DNA of 64,000 nt from positions 62,001 to 126,000 of the forward strand of contig NZ_NFKF01000003.1 in NCBI RefSeq assembly GCF_002160255.1, in the 5' to 3' direction. Positions 4,595-62,245 of the stretch are shown piece by piece. How positions within the stretch are numbered: the stretch's first letter is position 1; each line of letters begins with the position of its first letter. The position numbers and the translations under genes are program-made. The notes beneath the pieces were generated by a model, which saw only the letters and a list, made by a program, of their open reading frames with translations, did not search any database and was not told the DNA's origin. This stretch comes from Olsenella sp. An188. Lineage in GTDB: Bacteria; Actinomycetota; Coriobacteriia; Coriobacteriales; Atopobiaceae.

Positions 4595-4837
4595 GAGCTC
4601 GCGCCCTTCTCGACGCGCTACTGGCTCTGCGAGCGGTGATTTTGCATGGCGAAACGACGCTGCTAATGGGGTGAAGACGGGTTGTCAGTGGTTTTTTCTG
4701 GACTCTCGAGTAGGCGGAAGGGCGCGCAAGCCTCTGACCTGCGGTTGTTCAGAAGTTAGAGCTGGTTGCTACTTGGAGGGACCCGAAAAAACCACTGACA
4801 ACCCAAATTGAAGGGCCGGAACTGCCGCGCTTTCGGG
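4595..4837 (+). repeat. Long direct repeat, copy 2
   Basis: This is the second copy of the segment at 2484-2727. It starts with the terminal 15 codons and stop of the GH13 gene, now without a gene body in front, and runs to the same end point. The region 4476-4594 between it and the DUF262 start holds the DUF262 upstream sequence; a TACAAT-like hexamer is there but no convincing promoter. Confidence 0.95.
4679..4804. repeat. 20-base inverted repeat, element copy 2
   Basis: The arms 4679-4698 and 4785-4804 are perfect 20-base inverted repeats (GGGTTGTCAGTGGTTTTTTC and its complement). The intervening 86 bases closely match copy 1. Confidence 0.85.
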
Positions 4838-27835: not shown

Positions 27836-28521
27836 GACACGTCTCGCTCTCCCGAAGGGCCCTGCTCGCCGCGGCCGCCCCGGCGCTCGCGTGCTGCGTC
27901 GTCTGGTCCCTTGTCGGCTGCGACGCCGGCGCCCCCTCCGACGCCGCGGCAGACGACGCCCCCTCGCAGGACGCCTCTGCCGAGGCGACCTCCGAGGTTG
28001 ACCCGGACGACCCGTACGCCACGGGCATCCACCACGCCACCATCGAGGTCGAGGGCTACGGCACCATCGAGGTCTCCCTCAACGCCAACGTGGCGCCCAT
28101 CACGGTCTCAAACTTCTGCCACCTGGCCGAGGAGGGCTTCTACGACGGGCTGACCTTCCACCGCGTGGTGCCGGGCTTCATGATCCAGGGCGGCGACCCG
28201 TCCGGGGACGGCACGGGGGGATCTGGCCAGACCATCACGGGCGAGTTCTCTGACAACGGGGTCGAGAACGACATCCCCCACGTGCGCGGGACGATCTCGA
28301 TGGCGCGCTCGAGCGACTACGACTCGGCCAGCTCGCAGTTCTTCATCATGCAGGAGACCACCTCGTCGCTCGACGGCCAGTACGCCGCGTTCGGCACCGT
28401 GACCTCGGGTATGGAGGTCGTCGACGCCATCTGCGAGCAGGTGACGGTGGCCGACGAGGCGAGCGGGTACGTCGCGCCCGAGGACCAGCCCGTCATCACG
28501 AGCGTCACGATCGTCGACTAG
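27832..28521 (+). CDS. Peptidyl-prolyl cis-trans isomerase (cyclophilin) lipoprotein
   Basis: A 229-residue exported foldase: signal peptide with the lipobox LVGC at about residue 30, an acidic linker, then a cyclophilin domain (SNFCHLAEEGFYDGLTFHRVVPGFMIQGGDP; SSQFFI; AAFGTV). It should catalyse proline isomerisation in secreted proteins at the cell surface. Coupled to brnQ by a four-base overlap. Confidence 0.93.
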   Translation: MRHVSLSRRALLAAAAPALACCVVWSLVGCDAGAPSDAAADDAPSQDASAEATSEVDPDDPYATGIHHATIEVEGYGTIEVSLNANVAPITVSNFCHLAEEGFYDGLTFHRVVPGFMIQGGDPSGDGTGGSGQTITGEFSDNGVENDIPHVRGTISMARSSDYDSASSQFFIMQETTSSLDGQYAAFGTVTSGMEVVDAICEQVTVADEASGYVAPEDQPVITSVTIVD

Positions 28522-28917
28522 GCGGCCGGCCGGCGCGGGGCCATCCCGCGTGCTTAGGGATTCCGGGTTATGGCAACCGACGCCCCTGGCCTGCTTACGA
28601 ATCCGGGGTTGTGGCAGCCCACACCCCCTCCGCGGCCCGCTCTGCGGCGAGAAGAACCTCGGAACAGCGTCCCTGCCTGGGGTTCTTCTCGCCAGATGCG
28701 CCGCGTGGGGAGACGGCGCTGCCACAACTCCGACTTTCTAAGCACGCTCGCCGCGCGGACTGCCATAACCCTGATTTCCTAAGCGGGACACGGAAGCCTC
28801 CAACGCATAAACGCAATAAAATATCGAGAGCTGCGTAAGCTTTCAATACTCCATCCGTAAACGGCATAAAAATCTCCTTTTACGTGCTATACTTGGAAAA
28901 CGTGAAAGGAGTGGCCT
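28522..28917. repeat. Intergenic nested inverted-repeat cluster (locus A)
   Basis: Four copies of a 24-25-base unit ending GGGTTRTGGCA are present: forward at 28552-28575 and 28593-28616, inverted at 28719-28743 and 28760-28784. The outer copies match each other best and so do the inner ones, giving nested hairpins. At the centre GGCGAGAAGAACC (28646-28658) is inverted at 28681-28693. From 28785 the stretch becomes AT-rich and leads into the CarD promoter. Confidence 0.85.
28888..28893 (+). promoter_or_regulatory. Extended -10 TGCTATACT of the CarD gene
   Basis: TATACT preceded by TGC lies 25 bases before the ATG. There is no good -35. Confidence 0.55.
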
Positions 28918-29415
28918 ATGTATGCCATTGGGGAGTACCTCGTCCATCCGGGTCAGGGTGTGTGCCGCGTCGAGGATGTGACCGAGGGGCCACGGGCGGT
29001 CTACCAGCTGCTCCCCGTGGGCAAGCGCCACCCCGTGCACATCAGCTTCCCCGTTGCCAACGAGGCGCGCCTGCGCCCCGTCCTGTCGCGCTCCGAGGCC
29101 GAGGACATCATCGAGCGCTACCCCGCCATCGAGGTCGAGCAGTTCCAGGCGCGCAACAACGCGCTCGAGGAGGAGCACTACAGAAACGAGATGCGCCAGG
29201 GCTCGTGCCTGGACTCGGTGCGCATCGTCAAGACCTTCCGCGCCCGCATAGCCGACCTCTCGGCCCGCAACAAGAAGCCGCCGGTGGCCTACGAGCGCAT
29301 CCTCAAGGAGGCGAGCGAGCGCTCCTGCGCCGAGCTCGCCGTCGCGCTCGACTGCACCCCGGAGGACGTGGTCGTCCTCTTCCAGCGGCGTCTTGGCGAG
29401 GACGGCCAGAACTAG
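28918..29415 (+). CDS. CarD-family transcriptional regulator
   Basis: A 165-residue protein with an N-terminal CarD/TRCF Tudor-like domain (YLVHPGQGVCRVEDV) that should bind the RNA polymerase beta subunit, and a helical C-terminal DNA-binding part from about residue 65. In actinobacteria CarD stabilises open promoter complexes, including those for rRNA. The start follows AAAGGAG. It is monocistronic, bounded by repeat clusters on both sides. Confidence 0.88.
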   Translation: MYAIGEYLVHPGQGVCRVEDVTEGPRAVYQLLPVGKRHPVHISFPVANEARLRPVLSRSEAEDIIERYPAIEVEQFQARNNALEEEHYRNEMRQGSCLDSVRIVKTFRARIADLSARNKKPPVAYERILKEASERSCAELAVALDCTPEDVVVLFQRRLGEDGQN

Positions 29416-29459
29416 CCCCTGGCGAGAAGAGCCTGCGCTCAGCGATTCTGCCTGCCTGG

Positions 29460-29575
29460 CTGTAGGCGCCTGCCGACACTTTTACGGTCAGAAGTGACGG
29501 CAGGTGCCTACAGTTGCCCAATTGCAGGAGCGAACCGACACTTTCACCCCAAAAAGTGTCGGCAGGCGCCTACAG
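29460..29575. repeat. Intergenic inverted-repeat cluster (locus D)
   Basis: A 24-base unit beginning CTGTAGGCGCCTGCCGACAC is at 29460-29483, inverted with two changes at 29492-29513, and perfectly inverted at 29552-29575; a 10-base part (CCGACACTTT) is at 29535-29544. Two adjacent hairpins, or one long alternative pairing, can form. The rest of the gap 29416-29727 carries GGCGAGAAG cores at 29421 and 29608 and the promoter region of the ACT gene. Confidence 0.85.
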
Positions 29576-29682
29576 CCCCACTCCGCCCGCCGCCCGCCCC
29601 CGCGGTCCTTCTCGCCGGCGGACGAGCGTTACAGCTTTGACGCCAATGCGTGTGGGTGCTGTGTGGTCCCGCGTCCTCCCCT

Positions 29683-52393: not shown

Positions 52394-52554
52394 GGGGTGC
52401 CTTTCGTTCGACTGGGCCTTCCAGCATACCGCGAAAGGAGGGAAGTGGCTCCTTGCATTGGCGCTGGCGCGACGCCGGGCCCTGCCCCCCGCCGTGAGCC
52501 AGCCGAAGAGCCGCGTGCAAAGGTCGTTTTGCGGCGGGCTCTTCGAATCGAGCG

Positions 52555-52786
52555 TGCAGTTTGGCCCTTCAGTCCATGAAGACAGGGTTTCGTGGAGCAG
52601 TTTGGCCTCTCAGTTCATGCCCTTTTGCCCCCTCAGAGCGAAATGGGACTCATTCGATTCAAATTATGGTTCTCTTTCCTGGGCAAACGGGAAATCGTGG
52701 CCGCGGTCGCGCCGAAAACTCATGTACCGAGAGGTCAAATTGCACAATCGACCCGCGTTTTCATGGCTCGAAGGGCCAAATTGCAC
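52555..52786. repeat. Intergenic nested inverted-repeat cluster (locus B)
   Basis: Four copies of a unit with consensus TGCAATTTGGCCYTTCRGTC and then CATG: forward at 52555-52580 and 52597-52619, inverted at 52721-52746 and 52761-52786. The outer pair and the inner pair match best, so nested stems form. The rest of 52394-52993 has no gene; the same family occurs at locus C. Confidence 0.85.
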
Positions 52787-52993
52787 AAAAGGATACCCCT
52801 GCTGGACCGCACGCCGCTGTTTTGGGCCCGGTCTGCAGTCCCCAATCCGGTTTCGCTCTCGGGCAGCCGCCCCTCAGGCATTCTCGGGCCGCTCCCTCTC
52901 ATTAGCTGGCAGCTAATGAAATCGACGCGGCGCTCTCCAATAATGGGCTCGTTCGAACGCAGCCTCGTTGGACGCCAAGGGAAAGGCACAAGC

Positions 52994-61945: not shown

Positions 61946-62011
61946 GATGCCTCCTTCGGTGTCTGCTCGATGTCGCAAAGCATATCTTATGTTCTGGAAC
62001 GGCATCATCGT

Positions 62012-62245
62012 GTGTAATATCGGCCTTCGAGCCATGTTTTCCGGGGTCTGCGGTGCAATTTGACCTTTCGGTCCATGCAAATTCACCCCTAGGCCGTGGA
62101 ACCAGTTCGAAGTATTTGCTAATAAAATGATAAACCCCAGTTGGCGAGAGGCTGCCGGCGTGTCAGGTCTCGTCAGTTCATGGACCGAAGGGCAAAACTG
62201 CACAGCGAGACGTGGGTTTCATGGATCGAAGGCCTCTTTTGCGCA
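62012..62245. repeat. Intergenic nested inverted-repeat cluster (locus C)
   Basis: Four copies of the locus B unit family: forward at 62012-62036 and 62054-62077, inverted at 62179-62204 and 62220-62245. The outer two share GGCCTTCGA and the inner two CATGGACCGAA. An AT-rich spacer of about 100 bases is in the middle. Confidence 0.85.

Follow-up and report, generated by a model that had tools for sequence, protein, structure and literature searches.

What kind of element lies in the gap upstream of carD in Olsenella sp. An188? In the window (the whole stretch of DNA analysed, 64,000 nucleotides), the gap between the stop codon of what we take to be a cyclophilin-type gene (28521) and the start of what is presumably carD (28918; both names come from recognition by eye, by the first-pass annotation and by us, rather than from a database) holds a four-unit array at 28552-28784. 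We found two forward copies of a 24-bp unit, F1 (28552-28575, + strand) and F2 (28593-28616, + strand), and two inverted copies, R1 (28720-28743, - strand) and R2 (28761-28784, - strand), with a pitch of 41 bp on each side and a 103-bp gap from the end of F2 to R1 that falls on a ladder of one-turn steps. All four match by both pattern and matrix, and the pattern search gave 4 matches in the window against 0.01 expected from shuffles. Hence, the layout of two forward and two inverted copies that the first-pass annotation had reported upstream of carD is real. So is the innermost third pair that it had described, as the GGCGAGAAGAACC word is present in exact inverted copies at 28646-28658 (+ strand) and 28681-28693 (- strand). 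The arms, 28552-28636 and 28700-28784, are 85 nt each and 72% complementary. Other inverted repeats in the window include one just 3' of carD at 29458-29577, with TGTAGGCGCCTGCCGACACTTTT and AAAAGTGTCGGCAGGCGCCTACAG, and a near-identical repeat, GGGTTGTCAGTGGTTTTTTCTGGACYC, at 2567-2695 and 4679-4804, 2.1 kb apart, whose inverted arms are 29-37 nt long; this last pair is unlike the phased arrays.

A genome-wide search for the unit, which the annotation had proposed as a check, found 66 exact copies of GGGTTRTGGCA in the 2.14-Mb genome and 2 copies of the reversed control, and 64 of the 66 sit in arrays of at least three units (by a matrix built from the exact copies). Scanning the fetched loci of this genome with the matrix gave 21 arrays of at least three units (family A) and 102 scored units, with the consensus GCTTA-N7-C-GGGTTRTGGCA, which is asymmetric and not palindromic. 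The arrays at the end of contig C4 and the start of contig C13 probably belong to a single locus that a contig break divides; a further locus, L092, has two units only. Total array length is 223-265 bp in 18/19, the remaining one being cut by a contig end, and a hand count puts 54/58 same-direction spacings at 41 or 42 bp (the rest 44, 52, 53 and 81 bp).

The annotation had also compared the carD array with a similar layout built from a different unit, and this too was found: family B arrays (unit about GTGCARTTTGGCCYTTCRGTCCATG, order F-41-F-gap-R-41-R) lie in the window at 52553-52787 (L227) and 62011-62245 (L228). Family B has 12 loci in the genome, 11 of them regular, and its same-direction spacing is 41 bp in 23/23. 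Hence, two families in one genome have the 41-bp pitch and the inverted layout in common, and by inspection, without statistics, their units have no obvious similarity. A de novo layout detector run on 463 kb of DNA from this genome returned 10 matches, of which nine fell within eight arrays of family A or B and the tenth was odd; on 224 kb of block-shuffled DNA (from 9 of 21 sources) it returned zero.

Other members of the genus carry variant units, A' and A'', in the same kind of geometry. The A' unit (G012, G018 and G022) is CGTTG-N8-GGGGTTRTGGCA, and most A' arrays read F-41-F-38-R-62-R-41-R or its mirror image, such that 229/233 adjacent spacings in the three genomes are exactly 38, 41 or 62 bp (the others 40, 61, 102 and 104). 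The spacer between the third and fourth units (U3-U4) carries GCGAGAAGAACGCCCAGTTGGCG-like sequence. Two metagenome-assembled genomes (MAGs), one labelled Atopobiaceae (L166) and the other Coriobacteriaceae (L161), have units with another 5' half (CTAACG-type, ending GGTTGYGGCA or similar), placed head-to-head with spacings of 41, 30, 31 and 61. Their arrays (L161:290-690 and L166:3560-4015) are tandem-expanded, and the spacers are duplicated along with the units, so duplication of a 41-bp tile is one way for arrays to grow; the flanks of the two look alike by eye. The matches in Prevotella, a gammaproteobacterium and a Sericytochromatia MAG, in which the matrices recognise no units, seem to be due to chance. 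These results support the view that an architecture is shared rather than one sequence family, since the units of A, B, A' and A'' differ and the geometry is alike. The annotation's reading, a general class and not one mobile family, is thus supported, with a caveat: within the trio G012, G018 and G022, A' copies look dispersed and homologous, and because they are homologous and gained or lost between relatives, some spreading must occur.

The array is not a feature of carD itself. The gene is present in 31/31 genus genomes examined, and the 1.5 kb upstream of it is free of A, A' and A'' units, and of quartets of whatever unit, in 29/29 relatives with the locus (G022 gave no locus and was excluded). 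Hence, of the two things that the annotation had said would count against it, a layout unique to this site and its absence from relatives, the site at carD is indeed lineage-specific (0/29 relatives), but the layout is not unique. A carD regulon was rejected, as the neighbours of arrays vary, their orientation is free, and the 29 relatives lack the array at carD. The gaps that hold arrays in this genome are 9 tandem, 5 divergent and 4 convergent (n=18). Sites in the trio G012, G018 and G022 are 21 convergent, 23 tandem and 4 divergent of 48, a count that includes every ortholog and has no computed background, and the scarcity of divergent sites in the trio is absent in the An188 genome (5/18 divergent). 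In G022, 19 places with A' matches, some of them partial BLAST matches only, fall in the stretch from 659 to 2611 kb, with no such place at 0-659 kb; the replication origin could not be placed from the GC skew of 20 samples or from DnaA boxes.

The distance between the facing blocks proved to be quantised. In family A the gap from the last forward to the first inverted unit is 31, 41-42, 52, 63, 72, 93-94, 103-104 or 125 bp, and among periods from 4 to 30 bp the best is 10.35 bp (R=0.960, n=18 with the near-copies L088_0 and L088_1 dropped; R falls to 0.49 at 11.0). The eight distinct gap classes alone give R=0.972 at 10.4. For A'' (G004, G040, G020 and G015), the start-to-start distances among the matches listed are 98, 108, 117-118, 127-129, 140, 150, 159-161, 170-172 and 192, with a best period of 10.55 (R=0.932, n=31; 0.79 at 11.0); loci without a forward-then-inverted unit were dropped, and inner units with more than one mismatch may have been skipped, in which case a distance is off by a multiple of 42 bp. 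Family B gaps fall in three classes, 86.5, 97 and 115.5, with a best period of 9.85 (R=0.894, n=11 after dropping L223 for an overlapping match; 0.71 at 11.0), and are consistent with helical steps but weaker than those of A. Monte Carlo p values were at the floor of 5e-5 for A, A'' and B, against a uniform null and with gaps shared by descent not being independent.

Such steps bear on the reading that the array acts as RNA, its transcript folding as a long hairpin that would serve as a terminator, an RNase III substrate or an mRNA stabiliser. The predicted fold is strong (z -10.9 on the + strand and -8.3 on the - strand), but any inverted layout must fold, and the 10.35-bp quantisation of family A has no role in a loop. 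Complementary outer spacers were found in 3/17 family A arrays and are missing in the other 14 (17 loci, L098_0 dropped): identity between nested partners is 0.449 versus 0.392 between loci, the excess coming from the three. The choice of A or G in nested partner units does not match significantly (p=0.115, n=35), and the mean excess complementarity of A' arrays is +0.048 for U2:U3, their best axis, and +0.017 for U1:U5. One A' unit position does covary between U2 and U3 (Watson-Crick 0.89 against 0.51 expected, 36 non-redundant elements), and trio arrays often lie 3' of genes; however, arrays occur in tandem, convergent and divergent gaps alike. Rfam has no family at its cut-off in 28300-29000 (best MIR1846, E 0.47). 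On spacer complementarity, nested A/G matching and covariation, an RNA hairpin was rejected as the main constraint, and we hold this reading to be very improbable. What is conserved is not the pairing of inverted halves but unit sequence, pitch and helical phase.

Next to these fixed distances, we found that conservation within an element is uneven. Among 18 ortholog pairs, divergence within units is 0.069 (93/1350) at conserved positions and 0.189 at variable ones; elsewhere it is 0.212 in outer spacers, 0.111 in the core, 0.117 in the loop and 0.150 in alignable flanks (3/36 flank sides could not be aligned and were excluded). Since the flanks diverge less than the outer spacers, only units, core and loop are conserved, and not the whole element. 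Indels number 4 per 3780 bp in elements versus 21 per 1848 bp in flanks, a contrast that is an upper bound because the ortholog set required a 38-bp head-to-head pair and a 61/62 spacing (2/61 pairs dropped) and used fixed-length windows, both of which favour few indels.

Units can also differ together. Between leuS and guaB (neighbours by Pfam a leucyl-tRNA synthetase and an IMP dehydrogenase, 93-94% identical between the genomes), An188 and G020 have alignable arrays (L083 and L067) whose unit 3' halves differ in concert, the units being of the ...GGTTGTGGCA type in An188 and the ...GGTAGTTGCA type in G020. We read this as a change in place that may have followed a trans-acting protein; the alternative is independent insertion at one site. 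Both the uneven rates inside orthologous copies and this concerted difference speak against a selfish dispersed repeat with no cellular role, whose apparent conservation would come only from detecting the young or intact copies. Array detection does miss copies with decayed units, array positions in this genome are independent of gene orientation, and arrays are present or absent between close species, as a selfish repeat would have it. On balance we consider this explanation improbable.

Presence and absence were followed for 6 G012 arrays (L180 array 1, L176, L170, L167, L168 and L172) traced into G018 and G022. Array 1 of L180 is absent in both. For L176, G018 keeps the array minus one unit and G022 has a remnant; for L170 there are no units in the fetched G018 or G022 regions, the latter covering one flank only. 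L167 is absent in G018 and present in G022 with the array and its left flank inverted, and L168 was matched by its right flank only, with no units there. Hence, array sites are dispensable and come and go between relatives. The inversion between G012 and G022 (L167, L240 and L241) involves a short segment with a breakpoint at the array edge.

The inversion, together with the presence or absence of L180 array 1 and L167 between close species, is what one would expect if the arrays were synaptic sites like those of transposons or attP, with the units as arm sites for a transposase or recombinase and the centre as the place of strand cutting, surviving as MITE-like remnants or as recombination sites. 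The uniform length of 223-265 bp in 18/19 arrays and the presence of CCCAGK in the centres of both A and B fit as well, as do the A' elements, which end sharply at their outer units and have homologous spacers (43-50% identical between copies, versus 30-31% for flanks). However, 58 A' elements have no target duplication (offsets -3 to +4, lengths 1-10; at offsets 0-3 the counts resemble those from shuffled flanks), and a MITE with target duplication was therefore not found in A'. No autonomous element was met among the exact GGGTTRTGGCA copies, 64/66 of which are inside arrays. No array match was found in viral contigs (exact pair pattern) or in phages and plasmids (blastn, E<=1e-5), and a phage or plasmid origin was rejected accordingly. 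Unequal rates within orthologous copies are also unexpected for dead insertions. We regard synaptic sites as unlikely, though deserving more weight than a selfish repeat or a hairpin.

In most array centres there is a second motif. The GGCGAGAAGAACC word (at most 2 mismatches) is in 13/18 family A centres, 6/140 control stretches and 0/11 family B centres, and CCCAGK is in 9/18 A centres (controls 11/140) and 10/11 B centres (controls 8/66). The GGCGAGAAGAACC word has 220 copies in the genome (control 0), so most copies are independent of arrays; the 8 exact copies in the window start at 251, 28646, 28681, 31568, 31585, 34020, 44832 and 59696. Its first 12 bases occur in 31/31 genus genomes, 11 to 506 copies each (reversed control 0-2). 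As a dispersed word that sometimes forms close inverted pairs, it is a candidate uptake-type signal; a literature search returned no uptake-type signal for this group.

The helical gap steps, the rigid spacings and the concerted unit change point to double-stranded DNA read by a putative protein, rather than to an RNA hairpin or an ordinary MITE. Working from what was computed (the sites with their pitch and phasing, the unequal conservation, the aligned arrays that differ in their units at one locus, and presence or absence), we propose, with roughly even credence, that the element is a phased array of putative protein-binding sites that forms a DNA-organising nucleoprotein loop between genes. 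A dedicated sequence-specific protein encoded elsewhere would read the asymmetric sites of about 24 bp. Same-direction sites would lie about four helical turns apart (41-42 bp), and the facing inverted block a whole number of turns away, putting all bound molecules on one face of the helix. Contacts between them would then be possible both along the DNA and over the central stretch of about 30-125 bp, with its usual second motif (GGCGAGAAGAACC word, CCCAGK or both), and the compact loop would organise the DNA between genes, in domains, in topology or by anchoring. Copies would be born by dispersal and by tandem duplication of the 41-bp tile and lost by deletion, and as long as they are present, selection on their units, core and spacing would maintain them. 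Here the protein, its binding, the looping, the organising role and the origin of copies are what we infer. The U2:U3 covariation is not predicted by binding; quasi-palindrome correction during replication, a known mechanism, is a possible cause.

One weak lead to a binding partner is a protein of about 370 aa that adjoins arrays in three lineages at different places (L104:6972-8069; L184:235-1353, also L188 and L208; L076:1894-3012), with about 49-55% identity between lineages and one close copy in the An188 DNA examined. It is a candidate found after looking and is not counted as evidence. Pfam gave only REase_MTES_1575 below cut-off, PADLOC gave none, NCBIfam gave chance matches, the PDB gave nothing relevant, and the AlphaFold2 model was meaningless (pLDDT 33).

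More broadly, and a little less confidently than for the loop itself, we suggest a site class that spans at least the genus and perhaps the order Coriobacteriales, in which a fast-changing DNA-binding protein would read 4-6 sites on one face and drag all the units of a genome along when its specificity shifts. Each species would thus have its own code on the same scaffold, and one chromosome could run several codes, such as A and B, in parallel. The usual explanations of dispersed repeats in bacteria are mobile debris and RNA hairpins. Here the conserved trait is geometry, in whole helical turns, across different unit sequences, and this sign of a protein-DNA machine can be tested directly. 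The arrays may record how a DNA-binding protein changed together with roughly a hundred sites. Our literature search, with most subscription papers outside its reach, returned no description of such arrays.

How do the arrays compare with known systems? BIMEs and REPs occur in many intergenic copies, frequently between convergent genes, with regular units in both orientations, and a role in protein binding and chromosome organisation has been proposed for them (PMC2817692, PMC1525189); the REP is an imperfect palindrome with a GT(A/G)G head (PMC2817692). The arrays are likewise multi-copy and mostly intergenic, with units regularly spaced in both orientations. Unlike REPs, however, their unit of about 24 bp is asymmetric, without a palindrome or a GT(A/G)G head, and the units do not alternate but stand in same-direction blocks about 4 turns apart and are then inverted, with gaps in helical steps.

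Bacterial MITEs are short, dispersed and intergenic, with inverted ends, and are present or absent between genomes. The arrays, at 223-265 bp with outermost units that are inverted copies, are also dispersed, intergenic and variably present, but A' has no target duplication, spacers have diverged while units and spacing stay, and from one species to another the units change in a concerted way. Phage attP arms and Mu/Tn7-type ends have several asymmetric sites of about 20-25 bp, in two sets around a core and with helical phasing. The arrays have two site sets, a shared central motif, phasing and a similar size, but exist as some twenty chromosomal copies. The matS, Noc and RacA sites are single short sites, a few dozen dispersed per genome and read by one protein; the arrays are dispersed and putatively read by one protein too, but as phased arrays of 4-6 sites. 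Membership in BIMEs or in attP or transposon ends is not claimed, as defining features that were looked for (a palindromic unit, a target duplication in A') are absent. By analogy, the arrays appear BIME-like in position and multiplicity and attP-like or transposon-end-like in anatomy, and our best guess is a DNA-organising nucleoprotein site between genes that is like a BIME but is not one.
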